Shown in pieces: positions 30,676 through 40,604 of a stretch of 62,234 bases of DNA (its first letter is position 1; each line of letters opens with the position of its first letter). Location of the stretch: contig JAHLLJ010000007.1 of assembly GCA_020444205.1 (NCBI GenBank), positions 1-62,234 of the forward strand. Direction: 5' to 3'. The stretch is from Deltaproteobacteria bacterium. GTDB lineage: Bacteria > Desulfobacterota > Desulfarculia > Desulfarculales > Desulfarculaceae. The notes beneath the pieces are model-generated. The model was not told the DNA's origin. It ran no database searches and saw nothing but the letters and a program-made list of their open reading frames with translations. The position numbers and the translations under genes are program-made.

Positions 30676-31392
30676 ATGACGGATGATCCATATTTGCGTC
30701 CCACGCCTCCCTGGCTGGAAGATGAAGTGCTCATGCTGGAAAACAGCGGTGAAATGCCGGAGGTGGTTCTGGCGGAGAGCCTGCATCATCTAGGCTCTCT
30801 TCCGCCAGATGATGAAGATATTCTACGTGCCGCGGCAGTACGCGGCTACCTGAAAATTATCGAACGCGACTTAGACTACAATAATATGGGTCTGCCCCCT
30901 TTTCGGGGCCTTGGCCGGGCCGGGCAAAACCTGGTCCGCCTTTTCGCCTTTTTAAGGCGTATGGGCTGGCCGCCCCCGGCTGGAACCAAACAGGAGATTG
31001 CCGGTCGTTTAAGCGCCTTTTTAATGGCTGAGCAGCAGGCCTTGGAGCGAGGCCGCCCTTACGCTGGAGCCACTCGCGAGCAGGTTGAAACAATAGCGAA
31101 ATTACTAAGCCTAGATCTGACGCCTTTCAATGGGCTTATGAGTCGCTTGGACGCCCTGCCCGCCCCGGACTTTTGGGGGCTGAGAGCGCTGAAGCGTTTG
31201 GATGCGGCTCACGGACATTTTAAAAGGCGCAAGGAATCCCAGGGCAAGGCCCTCCTGGAGGTCTTGGACCGCCAGGGGCAACCCGTGGAGGCGGCGGAGC
31301 TCCCCCTGACCGCGGCCACTGATGATGAAGACCCGGATTGCCGCCAGCGGGTGGAAATGGTGTGGAGGCTAATTCCCTTGCCCGAAGCCTAA
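30676..31392 (+). CDS. Conserved hypothetical protein
   Basis: A 238-residue soluble protein, helical by composition, with the short motif PPFRGLGRAGQNLVR in its first half and a charged C-terminus. There are no recognisable catalytic motifs and no signal peptide. The ribosome site (AAAGGAAAAAA) is adequate. Its stop lies one base before the stop of the convergent parvulin-TPR gene. Confidence 0.7.
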   Translation: MTDDPYLRPTPPWLEDEVLMLENSGEMPEVVLAESLHHLGSLPPDDEDILRAAAVRGYLKIIERDLDYNNMGLPPFRGLGRAGQNLVRLFAFLRRMGWPPPAGTKQEIAGRLSAFLMAEQQALERGRPYAGATREQVETIAKLLSLDLTPFNGLMSRLDALPAPDFWGLRALKRLDAAHGHFKRRKESQGKALLEVLDRQGQPVEAAELPLTAATDDEDPDCRQRVEMVWRLIPLPEA

Positions 31393-31393
31393 G

Positions 31394-32863
31394 TTATTTC
31401 GCCTTCTTGGCGCGGTGGGGAGCTATGGCATTGAGCAGGCCCTGGGGAACCCGGTAGCCCAGTTCCAAAGCACGGTCCGCGGATTTGGCGGCCTCGTCCC
31501 AGTCGCCCTTGAGGGCATAGGCCCCGGCCATGTTGCTGTAGGCCGGAGCGAAGTTGGGGCTAATGGCCAGAGCCTTGACATACTCGTCGATGGCCTGGTT
31601 GAGTTTCTTCTGGGCCACAAACAAGTTGCCAAGGTTGACGTGAGCGTCAGGATAGCTCGGGTTTAGGGAAAGGGCCTTTTTGTACATTTTTTCGGCCTCG
31701 TTGGGCCGTTTGGTATATAGGTACACCAGCCCCAAATTGTTGTAGGCTTGGTCGTTGAAGGGGTCCAGGACTATGGTCTGCTTGAACTGGCGCTCAGCGG
31801 ACTTCATGTCGCGGGCGTAAAAGGACATCATGCCGAGCTGATAGTGCGCCTGGGCGAAATCGGGGTTGAGTTGTACCGCCCTTTCCATGTACTCGCGAGC
31901 CTGGTTGGGCTTATTGTCCTCGGCGGCCATCAGACCCAGGCTAACGTAGGCCCGGGCCGATTTGGGGTTACGGGACAACACCTCTTTCTCGATGATCTTT
32001 TTGGCTTCCTGTCGCTTGCCCTGACCGGCCAGCATGTTGGCCGCGAAAAGCTCTCCTTGCCAGAAGGCCGGGTCCGCCTGTTTACAAGCCAGGAATTTCT
32101 TCAGGGCGCTGTCGCTGTCGTTCTCGGTAATGGCCAGGAAACCCTCGGCAAACAACTTGACTGCCTTGGTTTTGACTTCCCCGCTGATGGCCTGACGGGT
32201 CATTTCCAGCAAAAACGCCGCGCTGTCCTCGCGGGGGTTATCTCCCAGGGCATTGGAGAAGTTGCTCTCGCCCTGCTTGAACTTGCCGGCGATAAGCGCC
32301 TCCACCCCAGCCAGAACCTTGCGCCGGGCAACCAAGTACGGCGCTTCGGTGGCAGTTTGCGGAGCAGGGGCGGGAGCGACGGTTTCCGGAGCAGCGGAGT
32401 CGGTGCCCAAGGAGGGTGAAGAGGCCGAAAAGCGGGTGGAATCTTCCAAGCTCTTGAATTTGCCTGTTTGAAAAGCCGGGGCCGCAGGCGCGGCTGCTGC
32501 GGCCTTTGCGGGCTGGTCAAAGCGCATCAGGATGGTATAGCCCTCTTCGGTAGGGATGACCTTGCTGGGCTTGTTGGGTGGCAGACCTTTCAGGGCGGCG
32601 CGAAATTCGCTACGCAGGCGCGTATATGGGACCTTACCCAGGCGGCCGCCCCGGAAGGAGGCGGGACCCACTGAGTTACGCTTGGCCAGGGTTTCAAAGC
32701 TCGCGCCCTTGCCCAGTTCCTTGGCCAACTGATTGGCCAGGTCTTTTTGCTTTACGGTGATTATCCCCAGGTCAACCTTTGCATCGCTTTGAGCCATAGC
32801 CGGCAGGGTGAAAGCCAATAGGAACAAGGCCAAGCTCAAAATCGTGGCTAAACGCATTTTCAT
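31394..32863 (-). CDS. Secreted parvulin-like plus TPR protein
   Basis: A 489-residue protein with a cleavable signal (about 1-24, LATILSLALFLLAFTLPAMA), then a PpiC/SurA-like parvulin region (about 30-117; LAKRNSVGPASFRGGRLGKV, EFRAALKGLPPNKPSKVI, EGYTILMRFD), an Ala/Pro-rich linker, and at least five TPR repeats from about 300 to 480 (for example ARAYVSLGLMAAEDNKPNQA, PDAHVNLGNLFVAQKKLNQA). The parvulin part keeps the EGY..I strand, so it may isomerise prolyl bonds or only bind chains. TPRs point to an envelope chaperone or assembly role. It is divergent from yedE. Confidence 0.8.
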   Translation of the reverse strand: MKMRLATILSLALFLLAFTLPAMAQSDAKVDLGIITVKQKDLANQLAKELGKGASFETLAKRNSVGPASFRGGRLGKVPYTRLRSEFRAALKGLPPNKPSKVIPTEEGYTILMRFDQPAKAAAAAPAAPAFQTGKFKSLEDSTRFSASSPSLGTDSAAPETVAPAPAPQTATEAPYLVARRKVLAGVEALIAGKFKQGESNFSNALGDNPREDSAAFLLEMTRQAISGEVKTKAVKLFAEGFLAITENDSDSALKKFLACKQADPAFWQGELFAANMLAGQGKRQEAKKIIEKEVLSRNPKSARAYVSLGLMAAEDNKPNQAREYMERAVQLNPDFAQAHYQLGMMSFYARDMKSAERQFKQTIVLDPFNDQAYNNLGLVYLYTKRPNEAEKMYKKALSLNPSYPDAHVNLGNLFVAQKKLNQAIDEYVKALAISPNFAPAYSNMAGAYALKGDWDEAAKSADRALELGYRVPQGLLNAIAPHRAKKAK

Positions 32864-33108
32864 GAAGTAGTTTCTCCTCTGGAGAGTCCCCGTATTTATA
32901 ACCGACCGGTCATGATTTTTACCTGTCCCCGCCGGGAGCTGTCAATTTATTTCCACAATTCCGCATCCATGGCGGGGGTTGATAATTTGGCCTTAACATA
33001 TCATAATTCAGACACTATCGCCGCTTAACCCGTTTAAGCGCCTGGCATGATACTTAAGACGCCGGCGGGTTGCTCTTACCCCTATGGTTATGTCCCCGGG
33101 AGGTTTGC

Positions 33109-34278
33109 ATGGGTGTTTTGGTGGAGAAGTTCAAAGAGGGCTACTCCGTACTATTCGATCGTAACTGGCCGCTTTGGGTGGGCGGCGTCTTGATAGCCTT
33201 GCTGGGTATCATTTGTATGGCCGCCGGCCGCCCTTGGGGTGTTGCCGGTGGCCTCAGGGTATGGAGCGATTGGCTCTTCTATTGGATCGGCCTGTACAGT
33301 AGTGCACCCACCCACGCCTTCTTTTTCAGCAACGCCTCCATCCTCACCTGGGGCCTGCTTTTCGGAGCTTTTGGCGCCGCCCTGATGTCCAGACAGTTCG
33401 CCTGGCGCAACGCCCCTAAATTGGAACTTTTCAAGGGCCTGATCGGCGGCGTGTTCATGGGAGTGGGCTCGGTGATGGCCGGCGGCTGCAACGTGGGTGG
33501 TTTTTACACCGCGCTGGCCGCCGGTTCGGTTTCCGGCTTCGCCATGATGGTCGGGCTCTTGGTGGGGGCGCTGATCGGCCTCAAGTACTTGATGTGGGAG
33601 ATCGAGCACCTCACCAGCAAGCCGCCCAAGCAAAAGCCCGCCAAGGAGGGTGGCATTGACTGGCCCAAGGTGCAGCCTTGGCTGGGGGGAATTTTCTTCC
33701 TGTTTTTGGTGGGATGGGCCTACTGCATGTCCTTCAGGGCCTATACCCAGGAGGCGGTGCTGATGCTCACCGCCGTGGGCATAGGCATTGTCATCCAGCG
33801 TTGCCGTTTCTGCTTTGTCCGCTCCTTCCGCGACCCTTTCATGACCGGCGAGGCCGTGGCCACCCGGGCGGTGGCTCTGAGCGTCATCCTGTCGGTGTTC
33901 GGCTTCTTCGCCATAAAATGGTTCCGGGCAGACTGGCAGATGATCTACATCTACCACCACTGGATCGGCGGCCTGGTGGGCGGGGTGATCTTTGGTATCG
34001 GCATGCTTCTGGCCGGTGGCTGCGGCTCGGGCTCGGTATGGCGGGCCGGTGAAGGCCAGTTCAAGCTCATCCTGGCGGTGCTCACCTTCTCCATGAGCAA
34101 CAGCTTGTTTAAAAACTTCATCTGGACCAAGGACGTGGCCAACTCCTGGGGCAAGCCCATTTTCCTCGCTGCGGTCACCGATTACTTCTGGGCCATTGTA
34201 ATCACCGCGGTGGTGATGTTGGTCTGGTGGGCGGTCATGGCCTGGAACGAAGAAACCGACAGCCTTACAATGGTATAA
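33109..34278 (+). CDS. yedE: YedE/YeeE family sulfur- or selenium-compound transporter
   Basis: A 389-residue polytopic membrane protein (about nine or ten spans) with the two family motifs VMAGGCNVGGFYTALAAG and LLAGGCGSGSVWRAGEGQ, whose Cys residues lie in the pore in thiosulfate-transporting relatives. The preferred substrate (thiosulfate, selenium species) cannot be read from sequence. The frame is open 13 codons earlier, but the ATG at 33109 has GGGAGG upstream. The adjacent tusA-like gene 44 bp downstream is the usual partner and supports a sulfur/selenium role. Confidence 0.88.
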   Translation: MGVLVEKFKEGYSVLFDRNWPLWVGGVLIALLGIICMAAGRPWGVAGGLRVWSDWLFYWIGLYSSAPTHAFFFSNASILTWGLLFGAFGAALMSRQFAWRNAPKLELFKGLIGGVFMGVGSVMAGGCNVGGFYTALAAGSVSGFAMMVGLLVGALIGLKYLMWEIEHLTSKPPKQKPAKEGGIDWPKVQPWLGGIFFLFLVGWAYCMSFRAYTQEAVLMLTAVGIGIVIQRCRFCFVRSFRDPFMTGEAVATRAVALSVILSVFGFFAIKWFRADWQMIYIYHHWIGGLVGGVIFGIGMLLAGGCGSGSVWRAGEGQFKLILAVLTFSMSNSLFKNFIWTKDVANSWGKPIFLAAVTDYFWAIVITAVVMLVWWAVMAWNEETDSLTMV

Positions 34279-34322
34279 GGCTTACCGATTTAATAGGTAA
34301 CTACCAAAAAGGAGAGACTAGC

Positions 34323-34559
34323 ATGGCCGAATGGACGCCTGATGAGGTCTTGGATGCCCGTGGTTTGAGCTGCCCCATGCCCATCCTTAAGACCAAAAAA
34401 GTAATGAAGAAACTGAAATCCGGGCAGATCCTGGAGATCCAGGGCACCGACCCGGGCACCCGCAACGACCTTCCCGCCTTTACCGAGCGCTCCGGCGACG
34501 AGTTCCTGGGCGAGGAGCAGCAGGACGGCTACATCAGCTTCTTTCTTAAAAAGGCCTAA
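34323..34559 (+). CDS. TusA/SirA-like sulfurtransferase
   Basis: A 78-residue TusA-like protein with the family signature DARGLSCPMPILKTKKVMKK, whose Cys carries persulfide sulfur (or selenium) in relatives. The later GTDPGTRNDLPAF is also typical. The ATG at 34323 has AAAGGAGAG upstream. It is co-directional with yedE and followed by a terminator, so the two form a closed unit. Confidence 0.92.
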   Translation: MAEWTPDEVLDARGLSCPMPILKTKKVMKKLKSGQILEIQGTDPGTRNDLPAFTERSGDEFLGEEQQDGYISFFLKKA

Positions 34560-35068: not shown

Positions 35069-37255
35069 ATGGCCAACAGCGAGTCAAAAACCCAGCGCAC
35101 TTCCGGCAGCCCGGCCTGGCCCCTGGCCTTTGCCCTGGCTGCCGCCGCCCTTTGCGCCGCGTTGGTTTTGGCCTGGTGGGCCCAGGGAGACCGCCCCTGG
35201 CAACGGGAGGTGTCGGCCATCAACCAGGCGCGGGGCGAGTTGCTCAAACAACAGTTGTTGGCCGCGGGCCTGGCCCCGCAACGAGCCGCAGCCAGGGCCC
35301 GGGAGGTGGCCCAAGAGCCACCAAGGGTGGTGGAGGTGACCCCCAGCGCCTTTGACCGGCCCGAGCGCTGCCTCACCTGCCACCAGGGCTTGGAGCAGAT
35401 CAGCCCCTCGCACCCGGTGGAGGCCATGGGCTGCGTGTCCTGCCACGGCGGCCAGGGACTAGCCCTGACCAAGGACCAGGCTCACCAAGGGCTCATCGGT
35501 GGGCGCAATCCCAGCGACTTGACTTTTGCCTGGGCATCTTGTGGGGGGCGCGGCGCGGCAGCCGGGCGCTGCCACGCTGGGCGCGAGAACCAGGCGGCGG
35601 ACATGGTATACCGGGTGGAGCGCACCATCATGGCCACCATGACCGGGGTGATCACCAGCCTGCGGGTGGCCTGGGGCGCCCAGGGCGACTTCACCACCCG
35701 CCTGGCCACCACAGCCATCAGCGATCCGCGCAGGCCCTCCCCCGCCCCGCCGCGCACCTTGGCTTCGCTGCTGATGATTCCGGCAGGTCCTCCAGCCGGG
35801 CCCAATCCGGCCCAGGTGGCGGACGAACAATGGAACAAGTTCTGCGCCCGTTGCCATTTGCGAGCCTCGCGCGACGCCGGGCTTTCGGTGCACGGCCAGG
35901 GCTGCGCGGCCTGTCACGGCAGCCGGGTGCCCTCGGGCCGCTACCTGGGCCAAGACGCCAGCCTGAACCGCGAGCAAAGCGGCCACGCCGCCTATCACAA
36001 GCTGCACGAAACCCCTCCCGAGGACAATTGCTTGCGCTGCCACAACCGCTCCGGCCGCTTAGGCCTTAACTATCGCGGCTGGGTGGAGGACGAGAACGGC
36101 CGAACCCCTTGGCCCACGGGACACCCCAACCACACCCTAAGCGGTGGCCGGGGAGTGCACCAGCTACTCCCGGATGTGCACCGGGCCAAAGGCATGGCTT
36201 GCGTGGATTGCCACTCCGGACGGGAAGTAATGGGCGACGCAAGGCTCTACGCACGCATGCGCTTTCAAACCGAGGTTACCTGCGCTACCTGCCACGGCAG
36301 GGCTGACGGCCCTCCCCGTTTGGGAGCGCCAGATGACTACGCCATGTACGAAGCCACCTACGGCCCGCTCAAGAGCGGCCCGGCTTTAAACCGCGACGAT
36401 CGCCTGGCCCTAAGCGCCAAGGGCCGTCCCCTGAGCAACCTGCGCCAGCAGGGCGGAAAACTGGTGCTGCTCTCTCGCAGTCAACCAGGTAAAAAGCATA
36501 CCGTGCCCTTGGTGAACGCTGACCAGCGCCACCGTCTGCCTGGGCACCAGCGCCTGGCCTGCCAGGCCTGCCATAGCCGCTGGACCCCCCAGTGCTACGG
36601 GTGCCACGACTATCGCCAGGCCTCTGGCTCCATGTGGAGCTATGCGGCCCAGGGCTTCACGCCAGGGCATTGGAAAGAAAGTCGCGACCAGTACCGCTTT
36701 AGCGACCCCGTTCTGGGAGTAGACTCGCAGGACAAGGTGCGTCCTTTTGTGCCCGGCTGCCAGGTAATCTACACCGCCAACGGCCCGGACGGGGCTCCCC
36801 TGCCCGGCCACGCCCTGGAGCAGCCCCGGACCAAAGCCATCATGAACAGCATTGTGTCCACCCCACTCAGCCCTCACACCACCCGAACCGAGGTGCGCCC
36901 TTGCGAGGCCTGCCACCTTAGCGGCAAGGCCTTGGGCCTGGGTAGCGGGCCGCGTCCCTTGGGCAAGTTAACGGCCATATCCTTGGCCGACCTTCAGGGC
37001 GTGGGCTTCCCGGCTGACTGGGAGACCCTGATGGACCAGCAAGGCCGTCCAATCCAAGGCCAGACCCATGAGGGAGCCCGGCCGCTCAACACCAAAGAGC
37101 TGCGCCGGGTGCTGGCCTTTGGCCGCTGCCTGCCCTGCCACCGCCGGCCGGACGACCCGGTGCTGGCCGACCCGGCCAAGGCCTGGAAACGCATCCTGCC
37201 GGGTGGCGATCTGGAGGCCAAGCATAAGCTCATGGAAGCCAAGGCCCTCAAATGA
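35069..37255 (+). CDS. Large multihaem c-type cytochrome (11 CxxCH plus one CX9CH site)
   Basis: A 728-residue exported protein with an N-terminal signal anchor (about 14-34). Eleven CxxCH sites are visible in order: CLTCH, CVSCH, CARCH, CAACH, CLRCH, CVDCH, CATCH, CQACH, CYGCH, CEACH, CLPCH. A twelfth site is non-standard: C158 and C168-H169 enclose nine residues, at the place where the downstream paralogue has a normal CGSCH. It is expected to move electrons in the periplasm. Its TGA overlaps the ATG of the next cytochrome gene, so the two are coupled. No hydroxylamine-, nitrite- or sulfite-reductase signature is evident, and the acceptor is unknown. Confidence 0.88.
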   Translation: MANSESKTQRTSGSPAWPLAFALAAAALCAALVLAWWAQGDRPWQREVSAINQARGELLKQQLLAAGLAPQRAAARAREVAQEPPRVVEVTPSAFDRPERCLTCHQGLEQISPSHPVEAMGCVSCHGGQGLALTKDQAHQGLIGGRNPSDLTFAWASCGGRGAAAGRCHAGRENQAADMVYRVERTIMATMTGVITSLRVAWGAQGDFTTRLATTAISDPRRPSPAPPRTLASLLMIPAGPPAGPNPAQVADEQWNKFCARCHLRASRDAGLSVHGQGCAACHGSRVPSGRYLGQDASLNREQSGHAAYHKLHETPPEDNCLRCHNRSGRLGLNYRGWVEDENGRTPWPTGHPNHTLSGGRGVHQLLPDVHRAKGMACVDCHSGREVMGDARLYARMRFQTEVTCATCHGRADGPPRLGAPDDYAMYEATYGPLKSGPALNRDDRLALSAKGRPLSNLRQQGGKLVLLSRSQPGKKHTVPLVNADQRHRLPGHQRLACQACHSRWTPQCYGCHDYRQASGSMWSYAAQGFTPGHWKESRDQYRFSDPVLGVDSQDKVRPFVPGCQVIYTANGPDGAPLPGHALEQPRTKAIMNSIVSTPLSPHTTRTEVRPCEACHLSGKALGLGSGPRPLGKLTAISLADLQGVGFPADWETLMDQQGRPIQGQTHEGARPLNTKELRRVLAFGRCLPCHRRPDDPVLADPAKAWKRILPGGDLEAKHKLMEAKALK

Positions 37256-39057
37256 AGCGGGTGTTGCTCATAGTCTTGACCCTGTTGGCCTTGGGCGGCG
37301 CTGCTTTGGCGCATGGTGCGGCCCAGCCGGATCAGGGGTGCGTTGCCTGCCATCCCAAGTTCACCGCGCCCATGCCACCGGCGGATCAAGGCCACGCCCT
37401 GGCCTGCACCCAGTGCCACCTGGGCCACGGCCAGGCCAAGCAGGCTGAAGCAGCCCACCAGGGCATGGTGAAAAGTCCTTCAGCCCTGGATCAGGCAGAG
37501 CGTGCTTGCGGATCCTGCCACAAGGGCTGGCCCGCCAAGGTGAAGCTCTCTCCCATGGCCACCAACATGGGAATCATCGCCCAGACCCGTTATCTGTGGG
37601 GAGCCCAGGACACGGCAACGCCCCTGTTCGCAATACGCGAGACCGGTCCCCTGGCGGCCATGCCTGATCCGCAAAAGTCGGGCCGGCCGGTAGACGACTT
37701 TTTGCGCCGCCGCTGCCTGCGCTGCCATCTGTGGAACCAGGGCGCGGATACCAAGGGCGCGCGGCGCTCGGCGGGGTGTTCCGCCTGTCACCGTCCTTAT
37801 GGCCAAGAGGGCCAAGCTCCCCAGGGGCACGGCCTGACCAAGAAGGTGACGGTGAGCCAGTGCCTTACCTGTCACTCCGGATGCGGGGCCGGGACAGAGT
37901 ATGCTGGGCGCACCGCCCGCGATGCCACCGTGTCGGCCCGTTTTTTGGCCACCCGGCGCGACCAACCAGAATTAATTCAGGACCGCACCTGGCGTCCCAT
38001 GCGTCCGGACCTGCACTTCCAGGCGGGCCTGGCCTGTTTGGATTGCCACCCGCGTAGCGAGGTGATGGGCGACGGCAAGCTACGCTCCGCTGGATTGCAG
38101 CAGGTGGGCCTGCGCTGCTCTTCTTGCCATGGTGAGCTGGGCAAGAAGCCGCCTAATAAAGTGGTCACCGCCCACGGCGCTGCGCTGAGCAACCTGTCTT
38201 GGCAAGGCGGCAAGCTGCTGCTAAGCGGCAAGCTGGACGGCAAGCAGCGCTCCGTGCCCCTCATCGCTCGGGCCGATGCGCCGGTGGCCCACCGCATCGC
38301 CGAGCACAACAAGGTAGCGTGTCACGCCTGCCACGCCTCCTACAATCCCGGCGTTTGGGGCATGCAGGTGCTTATGGAGACCAGCACCGGCTATGCAACG
38401 CATGCGCGAATCGCCGCCCAGGGTGATCCCCAGGTATATAACCTGCTGAGCCGGGCCCTGACCCAGAGAGGCCGCGCGGTGAGCCCGCCCCAAACCCATG
38501 ATTATCTGAACGGTCAGATGCGCCTCGGTGTGTGGCTGCTCTCGCCCTGGTTCCGGCGCTATGAATGGCGAGTATATGGCTTGGGGCCGGAGGGGCGCAC
38601 CTATCTGCTCAACCCGCGCTTTCAATACGTGCTCACCTTGAAGAACCCCAATGGCAAGCTGACTATGCAGGCCCAGGTGCCCAACCCCGGCTTGGGGGTG
38701 ACCCCTTGGAATCCCCACACCACGGCCAAGGCCACGGTGAGCTGCGCGGACTGCCACGGCTCGGCCCGGGCCTTGGGACTGGGGCTAACTTTTGTGCGTG
38801 AGGGCAAGAAAAAAGGCGAGCCGATCAAACTGGCCCCGGAGCTGTGGCTGCCCGGCGGCGAGGGCCTGACTCTGCGCGGGGGGTGGACCAAGGTGGTGGA
38901 TTTGCAGGGACGGGCCTTGCAGCAGCTCCTGGTGCCCGGCTCCCGGCCTTACAACCAGGAAGAACTGCGCCGTTTGTTGCAGCCGGGCAAGAGCTACCAG
39001 CGCTGGCTGCTCAAAGCCATGGAAGAAGACTGGGCCCTTAAAAAGCCCACCAGGTGA
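37252..39057 (+). CDS. Multihaem c-type cytochrome (10 CxxCH)
   Basis: A 601-residue secreted protein with a cleavable signal (about 1-20, RVLLIVLTLLALGGAALAHG) and ten CxxCH sites: CVACH, CTQCH, CGSCH, CLRCH, CSACH, CLTCH, CLDCH, CSSCH, CHACH, CADCH. Long stretches parallel the upstream cytochrome (for example the block after the third site, MATNMGIIAQTRYLWGAQ against MATMTGVITSLRVAWGAQ, and the GGKLxL..VPL block), so the pair arose by duplication. The ATG overlaps the upstream TGA. Its 3' end overlaps the convergent subunit IV-like gene by 20 bp. Confidence 0.9.
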   Translation: MKRVLLIVLTLLALGGAALAHGAAQPDQGCVACHPKFTAPMPPADQGHALACTQCHLGHGQAKQAEAAHQGMVKSPSALDQAERACGSCHKGWPAKVKLSPMATNMGIIAQTRYLWGAQDTATPLFAIRETGPLAAMPDPQKSGRPVDDFLRRRCLRCHLWNQGADTKGARRSAGCSACHRPYGQEGQAPQGHGLTKKVTVSQCLTCHSGCGAGTEYAGRTARDATVSARFLATRRDQPELIQDRTWRPMRPDLHFQAGLACLDCHPRSEVMGDGKLRSAGLQQVGLRCSSCHGELGKKPPNKVVTAHGAALSNLSWQGGKLLLSGKLDGKQRSVPLIARADAPVAHRIAEHNKVACHACHASYNPGVWGMQVLMETSTGYATHARIAAQGDPQVYNLLSRALTQRGRAVSPPQTHDYLNGQMRLGVWLLSPWFRRYEWRVYGLGPEGRTYLLNPRFQYVLTLKNPNGKLTMQAQVPNPGLGVTPWNPHTTAKATVSCADCHGSARALGLGLTFVREGKKKGEPIKLAPELWLPGGEGLTLRGGWTKVVDLQGRALQQLLVPGSRPYNQEELRRLLQPGKSYQRWLLKAMEEDWALKKPTR

Positions 39058-39397
39058 GCCCGGCCCAGGCCAGGAGCACCGCCCAGGCGGCCAGGTCGAT
39101 CCAGGACGGACGGGTGTAGGCGGGCAGCGCCGGGGCGGGGCGTTTGGCCAGCCAGGGTAAGGCAGCCAAAAGGGCCAAGGCCAGGGCGGGCAGCAGCAGC
39201 CCACCGATGCTGACCGGCAGATGGCGCAGCAACTCCTGCAGGCCCAGAAATATCCATGGGGCCTGGGCTTGATCAGCCGGGCCGCTGGACACTGGAGCCA
39301 AGGGGTAGAACACCGCGGCCAGGCCCAACAGGGCCAGGGCGATGAGGCTGGCCAACCCCTCTTTCTTGACCAGGTTGCTGCGAGTGGATTCGGTCAT
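39038..39397 (-). CDS. Cytochrome b C-terminal domain / b6f subunit IV-like membrane protein
   Basis: A 119-residue protein with three membrane spans (about 15-32, 58-82, 98-117). The segment APWIFLGLQELLRHLP matches the Qo-loop region of subunit IV/cytochrome b, where the canonical motif is PEWY; here it reads A46-P-W-I49, so the proton-accepting Glu is missing. It is on the opposite strand from the Rieske and cytochrome b genes, starts 94 bp from the Rieske gene and ends inside the 3' end of the cytochrome operon. It probably completes the split cytochrome b of that complex. Confidence 0.75.
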   Translation of the reverse strand: MTESTRSNLVKKEGLASLIALALLGLAAVFYPLAPVSSGPADQAQAPWIFLGLQELLRHLPVSIGGLLLPALALALLAALPWLAKRPAPALPAYTRPSWIDLAAWAVLLAWAGLTWWAF

Positions 39398-39491: not shown

Positions 39492-39974
39492 TTGCCCCAA
39501 TCCCCAGCCACAACCGCGCCGGACCGACCCAGCCGCAGAGGCGTGCTCAAGCTGCTGTACGCTTGCATTTGGCTGTCCCTGGTGGGGGCGGTGGGCCTGG
39601 GCCTGGGCGCGGTGCTGCGCTTGATCAGCTCTGGGAGCGGCGCGTCACAGGCACAACCGGTGGAGTTCAACCAACCAGGCGATTTGGCCGTGGGTCAGGC
39701 CCGGGACGGCGGCCCGGTGGCCCTGGTGCGCGACGTCCAGGGCTATTTCGCCTTGAGCCTGGTTTGCCCCCACCTTGGCTGCCGCCCGGCCTGGCACCAA
39801 GACAAAGGCCGCTTTCTTTGCCCTTGTCACGGCTCAATGTTCGCCCAGGACGGGGGGCGCATCTCCGGCCCCGCTCCCAAGGGCCTCAGCCACGTGGCCC
39901 TAAAGGCCAGGGGCAACAAGCTGGTGGCCTACCCAAACCAAACGGTGGACCCGGCCACCCGGTTGCGAGCTTGA
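39492..39974 (+). CDS. Rieske [2Fe-2S] iron-sulfur protein
   Basis: A 160-residue protein with an N-terminal membrane anchor (about 20-44; LKLLYACIWLSLVGAVGLGL) and a Rieske domain. Cluster ligands are in CPHLGC and CPCHGS, with the Gly/Pro loop GGRISGPAPKG. It takes electrons from quinol oxidation in bc1/b6f-type complexes. The start is TTG at 39492 with ACAGGAGG upstream. The cytochrome b gene follows after 3 bp. Confidence 0.92.
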   Translation: MPQSPATTAPDRPSRRGVLKLLYACIWLSLVGAVGLGLGAVLRLISSGSGASQAQPVEFNQPGDLAVGQARDGGPVALVRDVQGYFALSLVCPHLGCRPAWHQDKGRFLCPCHGSMFAQDGGRISGPAPKGLSHVALKARGNKLVAYPNQTVDPATRLRA

Positions 39975-39977
39975 GCC

Positions 39978-40604
39978 ATGGCCAAGCCGGGATTTTTGGA
40001 GCACATACATCCGCCGCGCATCCCGCCGGAGCGCACCTGCTTTACCTCCACCTTTTGTTTGGGCGGGTTGTCCTTTTTGCTGTTTCTGGTGCTGGGCGGC
40101 ACGGGTGTGGTGTTGATGTTCTCCTATGTGCCCACGCCCCAAGGCGCGGCGGCCTTTTTCGCTCAGGAAGCAGGCGACCTGCCCTTTGCCTGGTTCTTTA
40201 GGCGGCTGCATTTCCTGGCGGGCCAGGCCATGGTCATTACCCTGCTGCTGCACCTGGCCCGGGTGCTGGCCGCCAGGGCCTACCTTCCCCCCCGCTCTCT
40301 CAACTGGCTGGTGGGCCTGATCCTGCTCCTGCTAACTCTGGCCCTGGACTTGTCGGGTTATGTGCTGCGCTGGGACGCGGCCACCCAGGGAGCGGCTACG
40401 GTGGCTGCGGGAGTAGTGGGCGAGATTCCGGCCGTCGGGCCCCTGTTCAAGCGTCTATTGTTGGGAGGGCCCACCCTGGGCGAGGCCGGGCTGCTGCGCT
40501 TTTACGTGCTGCATTGCCTGGCCCTGCCCGTGCTCACCTTGGTGCTCAGCCTGTATCACTTCTGGCGCATCCGCAAGGACGGGCGGCCCACTTCCGGGCT
40601 ATAG
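39978..40604 (+). CDS. b6-type cytochrome b (N-terminal four-helix half)
   Basis: A 208-residue membrane protein with four main spans. The bis-His ligands for two b haems are H78/H92 (RRLHFLAGQAMVITLLLHLA) and H179/H194 (VLHCLALPVLTLVLSLYHF), with b6-like spacing. Cys27 in TFCLGG aligns with the b6 cysteine (in FYCLGG) that holds the extra high-spin haem ci, so this haem may be present. Length and helices match b6, not full cytochrome b; the C-terminal half is the separate minus-strand gene at 39038-39397. It follows the Rieske gene by 3 bp. Confidence 0.88.
   Translation: MAKPGFLEHIHPPRIPPERTCFTSTFCLGGLSFLLFLVLGGTGVVLMFSYVPTPQGAAAFFAQEAGDLPFAWFFRRLHFLAGQAMVITLLLHLARVLAARAYLPPRSLNWLVGLILLLLTLALDLSGYVLRWDAATQGAATVAAGVVGEIPAVGPLFKRLLLGGPTLGEAGLLRFYVLHCLALPVLTLVLSLYHFWRIRKDGRPTSGL

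Follow-up and report, generated by a model that had tools for sequence, protein, structure and literature searches.

The window is a stretch of 62,234 nucleotides of contig JAHLLJ010000007.1 from a bacterium of the Desulfarculaceae. It contains the gene for a multihaem cytochrome, P0001, in which the third haem attachment site has nine residues between its cysteines. The gene lies between two sulfur genes and a Rieske/cytochrome-b module. The features of the locus are:

33070-34278, + strand: YedE/TsuA-type sulfur transporter (PF04143, E 2.6e-44)
34227-34559, + strand: TusA-type sulfurtransferase (PF01206, E 2e-23)
35069-37255, + strand: P0001, ExtM-related dodecahaem cytochrome of 728 aa, with 11 CxxCH and 1 CX9CH (NF040943, E 1.2e-107)
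35483-35485, + strand: H139 of P0001, nearly invariant (kept in 110 of 111 rows), 19 residues ahead of the haem-3 site; candidate distal ligand
35540-35575, + strand: CX9CH haem-3 attachment site of P0001 (C158, C168, H169); C...CH in 117 of 117 covering family rows
36758-36760, + strand: C564 of P0001 in PGCQ, a non-haem cysteine; some relatives have Met or a selenocysteine-like UGA here
37252-39057, + strand: P0002, a paralogous decahaem cytochrome with CxxCH at the equivalent site (NF040943, E 1.2e-51, below the cut-off)
39038-39397, - strand: small membrane protein resembling cytochrome b6/f subunit IV (PetD) (PF00032, E 3.8e-5, which passes the cut-off)
39492-39974, + strand: Rieske iron-sulfur protein, probably in an ExtO-like role (PF00355, E 1.9e-10)
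39978-40604, + strand: ExtP-related cytochrome b (NF040969, E 3e-59, 200 bits, under the 290-bit cut-off; PF00033, E 1.4e-35)

The P0001 reading frame is open throughout. The codon of C158 is at 35540-35542 and those of C168-H169 are at 35570-35575, and the residues between the two cysteines are GGRGAAAGR. The original prediction of a nine-residue separation is correct. It had also described a normal CxxCH in the downstream paralogue, which is found at the aligned place in P0002 (CGSCH, residues 86-90, 37507-37521) and is followed by the PMATNMGIIA...WGAQ block as claimed. A hydrophobic segment spans approximately residues 19-37 of P0001. The AlphaFold model of the protein has a mean pLDDT of 82.7. 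In fold searches of the PDB, no match reached an E-value below 0.001 and the hits were limited to short helices, so no solved structure could be used to place haem 3; the lack of a usable match says nothing for or against a particular fold. A PDB sequence search gave only local matches to haem motifs, the best being NrfA (E 4.5e-5).

The best curated family for P0001 is NF040943 (ExtM), with an E-value of 1.2e-107. The score of 360.7 bits is below the equivalog cut-off of 800 bits, so P0001 does not qualify as an ExtM equivalog; this cut-off is exceeded in only 8 of 395 genomes of the phylum. In Pfam, the matches were confined to general families of multihaem cytochromes. All twelve haem sites of P0001 align one-to-one and in the same order with the twelve CxxCH of the Geobacter-type ExtM proteins above the cut-off (8 of 8), which places P0001 in a broad ExtM-related superfamily and makes the stretched site the third haem in ExtM order. 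By profile score and haem order, P0001 is a distant relative of ExtM. P0002 is a second ExtM-like protein and is more distant from the NF040943 profile than P0001. In the available part of the source, ExtM is the 12-haem protein of the extHIJKLMNOPQS cluster, which also encodes a Rieske protein and a cytochrome b and has been linked to selenite/tellurite reduction (PMC5877670).

In a first search, 16 of 60 related genomes were matched and 13 had an orthologue covering the haem-3 site. Orthologues within the genus are CX9CH, while relatives beyond it have CX9, CX8 (genome G009), CX6 or CX4. For the wider family, 186 ORFs with at least five CxxCH were collected, with L087-L107 excluded as duplicates; removal of contained copies left 127, the A1 profile matched 123, and the 119 above 60 bits were aligned. 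Two of these rows do not cover haem 3, and the alignment of six ExtN-like rows is less certain at this site. The 117 covering rows all retain C...CH, with a spacing of CX2 in 56, CX3 in 1, CX4 in 39, CX6 in 3, CX8 in 1 and CX9 in 17. The remaining eleven haem sites are CX2CH, save for four CX4CH at haem 1, one at haem 4 and rows without CH in the column. The earlier suggestion that the site is kept but stretched agrees with this alignment, in which the haem-3 site is conserved and its loop varies in length. It has the two cysteines and the CH histidine of an expanded c-type motif (CXnCH, n above 2), and in P0001 the site has probably been kept at a very unusual cysteine spacing. The spacer that separates the motif from the MAT block is also longer in the stretched proteins (usually 17 residues vs 10), and their loops are 64% Gly/Ala/Pro/Ser.

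The CX9CH form occurs in 17 distinct sequences from independent assemblies and two lineages, including the genome of the named isolate Desulfocarbo indianensis. Since C...CH is kept at varying spacings in many relatives, the motif is neither a sequencing error nor strain-specific. Nothing was found in favor of a sequencing or assembly error, the probability of which is negligible given this recurrence. The alignment of homologues that had been proposed as a check also rules out an insertion specific to one strain. Among the 395 phylum genomes, which were scanned with alignment A1, 58 match at E 1e-60 or better and 17 have a spacing of six or more; the scan added no new stretched lineage.

A quick LG+G4 tree of 114 of the 117 rows (three short rows left out, haem-3 columns removed) suggests that the spacing changed at least nine times, with a long-branch warning and uncertain deep joins. 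The 21 rows with a spacing of at least six fall into two groups on the tree: one is a Desulfarculia-like clade, in which a single CX4 row is nested, and the other is a four-genome family. CX2/CX4 ancestors within the family may have given rise to longer loops, whose length then changed again in the stretched lineages. Chloroflexota relatives (L050-L053) have CX3CH or CX4CH at haem 3, and Rieske and cytochrome-b homologues adjoin the gene in L050 and L051. One ExtM-like gene (L115/L194, genome G341) lacks an intact N-terminal half and has a TAA inside the match, suggesting a broken gene or an assembly fault. The viral contigs searched contained no relative, and the matches in 13 plasmid records were all weak and partial.

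Every one of the 21 family members with a spacing of at least six has the equivalents of C158 and C168-H169, which goes beyond chance. The loop letters vary from lineage to lineage, and the codons of the motif show synonymous variation (TGT/TGC, CAC/CAT). Loss of haem 3, with C158...CH left as a relic, is highly improbable. A cofactor cannot be shown by sequence alone, but a relic would decay, and here the site is invariant in 21 stretched proteins down to approximately 35-45% identity. The haem-free relic was rejected on this invariance and on the near-invariance of H139, which is kept as well and could be the distal ligand of haem 3.

The haem could also be held by a single thioether, with C168 bonded, H169 ligating and C158 kept for a disulfide, a metal site or a similar role. 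A loop of this length is a long one to close around the two vinyl groups, and c-type haems held by a single cysteine are known. However, at every spacing in the series from 2 to 9, C158 stays invariant along with C168-H169, and this covers CX2CH and CX4CH sites, at which attachment by two thioethers is the rule. Counted from the first CxxCH, the 21 stretched proteins have only 30 cysteines outside haem motifs in 12,803 residues, and apart from C564 there is no invariant free cysteine that could serve as a partner. A single thioether is therefore unlikely. In the preferred reading, the third haem would be attached through both C158 and C168 with H169 as the proximal ligand, and the nine-residue Gly/Ala-rich loop would bulge out between the cysteines.

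The non-haem cysteine C564 lies at a conserved position. Ten of the 119 aligned relatives (L118, L119, L120, L121, L126, L127, L137, L139, L140 and L147) have an in-frame TGA exactly at the PGCQ cysteine (PGUQ), with homology on both sides. A hairpin lies just 3' of the TGA in most of them, with a fold z-score below -0.8 in nine of the ten and +0.56 in the exception; eight Cys-coding controls have z-scores of -1.1 to +1.1. SelB is present in all ten genomes and also in the Cys-coding ones. This ExtM-related multihaem family likely has a selenocysteine-containing branch. Seven further relatives, mostly labelled betaproteobacterial, have Met at this position (L043, L044, L045, L046, L048, L049 and L055). 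The occurrence of Cys, Sec and Met at a single position would be in keeping with a role as haem axial ligand or in catalysis.

The maturation of haem 3 was addressed by a survey of cytochrome c synthase genes in 31 genomes, 20 of which carry the stretched motif, using the PF01578 and ResB profiles. The original prediction had hinted at a dedicated lyase, but no CcsA-, CcsB- or CcmF-type gene was found to track the motif in these genomes. The precedents for a dedicated synthase are the Wolinella and Shewanella CX15CH proteins MccA and SirA, as far as the available parts of the sources describe them (PMC10663686, PMC6976685). Three of the 20 stretched-motif genomes (G000, G009 and G010) have a third, weak PF01578 match, and G115 has four matches. 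Against this, 15 of the 20 have just two matches and G197 has one. The non-carriers G013 and G008 have similar sets (two and three matches), G015 has one and G012 none, and the third CcsA-like gene also occurs in G008, a genome without an orthologue. The contig of the window has no PF01578 match.

In most genomes one of the PF01578 matches is, by position, CcsA beside CcsB. The second CcsA-like gene, which is present in non-carriers too, adjoins hemA in both genomes checked (G006 and G009) and is presumably HemX-like. Paralogues of this hemA-neighbor type narrowly exceed the NCBIfam CcsB cut-off of 187.6 bits (191.3 in G006 and 194.7 in G000), so there may be a second synthase. ResB is a single locus in nearly all of the surveyed genomes; it is absent from G197 and truncated by the end of a contig in G000, the window's own genome (82% complete). 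A dedicated synthase was rejected as the default reading since no synthase gene tracks the motif, and it is unlikely. The housekeeping System II synthase is most likely the agent that attaches haem 3, being the simplest one when no lyase tracks the motif. Its CcsB-CcsA would attach this haem plus the other eleven.

The block of YedE, TusA, P0001, P0002, PetD-like, Rieske and cytochrome-b genes is kept in four Desulfarculaceae loci (L031, L033, L034 and L037). Parts of it occur in L032 and L038-L040, some of which are cut by contig ends. In Desulfocarbo (L035) the YedE, TusA, Rieske and cytochrome-b genes are missing beside the cytochrome pair; therefore, the neighborhood is not universal, and the linked Rieske and ExtP-like cytochrome-b genes seen at the P0001 locus are not a feature of every member of the superfamily. 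P0002 and the Rieske gene are separated by the PetD-like gene, which is encoded on the opposite strand and is found at this position in several relatives as well. A TPR protein that gives weak PpiC-type matches close to its N-terminus (31394-32863, - strand) and a DUF7826 protein (30676-31392, + strand) adjoin the sulfur genes, and both genes are conserved there in four Desulfarculaceae loci.

The Rieske/cytochrome-b module and the TusA and YedE genes adjoining P0001 suggest that electrons from quinol travel through the periplasm to a compound of sulfur or selenium, which is put forward tentatively. P0001 would be a membrane-anchored periplasmic dodecahaem cytochrome, and electrons would pass from quinol via the adjacent module and P0001 toward the sulfur or selenium compound. 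The loop beside haem 3 may aid the docking of a substrate or partner.

Taken as a whole, the best explanation is that P0001 is an ExtM-related, membrane-anchored dodecahaem cytochrome with haem 3 attached through C158 and C168, matured by CcsB-CcsA and serving a quinol-to-sulfur/selenium path; this account is fairly probable. A more specific version, in which the haem-3 series of CX2, 3, 4, 6, 8 and 9 is matured by the general CcsB-CcsA throughout and the loop lies near a sulfur/selenium substrate or partner site, in line with a proposal made for the OmcZ loop, has somewhat less than an even chance. If true, this would mean that System II can handle as many as nine loop residues with no dedicated enzyme. 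A graded spacing series at one site of one family allows a direct test of the limits on cysteine spacing in haem attachment. The same series lets one test whether long motifs truly need dedicated synthases, as stated in the available part of a review (PMC10663686), and a cultured carrier of CX9CH exists in Desulfocarbo indianensis. Haem-motif counters may stop at short spacings (n = 2 to 5, PMC12545173; 2 to 4, PMC10734462); such counters would miss stretched sites and understate the haem number.

The original prediction mentioned expanded motifs such as CX15CH in MccA, and these are documented (PMC10663686, PMC6976685, each in its available part). It regarded CX9CH as new, and the open-licence papers searched include no haem paper naming CX9CH in that notation, the sole mention being an unrelated rat study. 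Stretched haem motifs are thus known and the CX9CH spacing itself was not found in print. CX3CH and CX4CH have been counted as haem motifs (PMC10734462); 39 of 117 relatives have CX4CH at the homologous haem-3 site, whereas the stretched spacing of the P0001 type is 6-9. Haem 1 of Geobacter OmcZ (CX14CH) also has a loop between its cysteines, of 14 residues and seen by cryo-EM (PMC9473688). In the available text, removal of this loop is reported to suppress the reduction of soluble acceptors (PMC11208441); the available parts of these accounts mention no dedicated synthase (PMC9473688, PMC11208441). Unlike P0001, OmcZ is an extracellular, filament-forming octahaem protein and is unrelated by its description. 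The sulfite reductases MccA and SirA (CX15CH/CX12NKGCH) resemble P0001 in having a stretched motif in a multihaem cytochrome with a link to sulfur compounds. The match of P0001 to MccA (4rkm) by sequence profile is weak (E 0.45). As far as the available parts of the sources go, MccA and SirA need a dedicated synthase (PMC10663686, PMC6976685), and CXXCK and CX15CH motifs come with dedicated synthases (PMC10663686, PMC6976685, PMC3601427). The closest likeness is to Geobacter ExtM, which shares with P0001 the twelve haem sites in the same order and the adjoining Rieske and ExtP-like cytochrome-b genes. P0001 differs from ExtM in having CX9CH rather than CX2CH at haem 3, a score of 360.7 vs the 800-bit cut-off, a hydrophobic N-terminal segment and a second ExtM-like cytochrome alongside.
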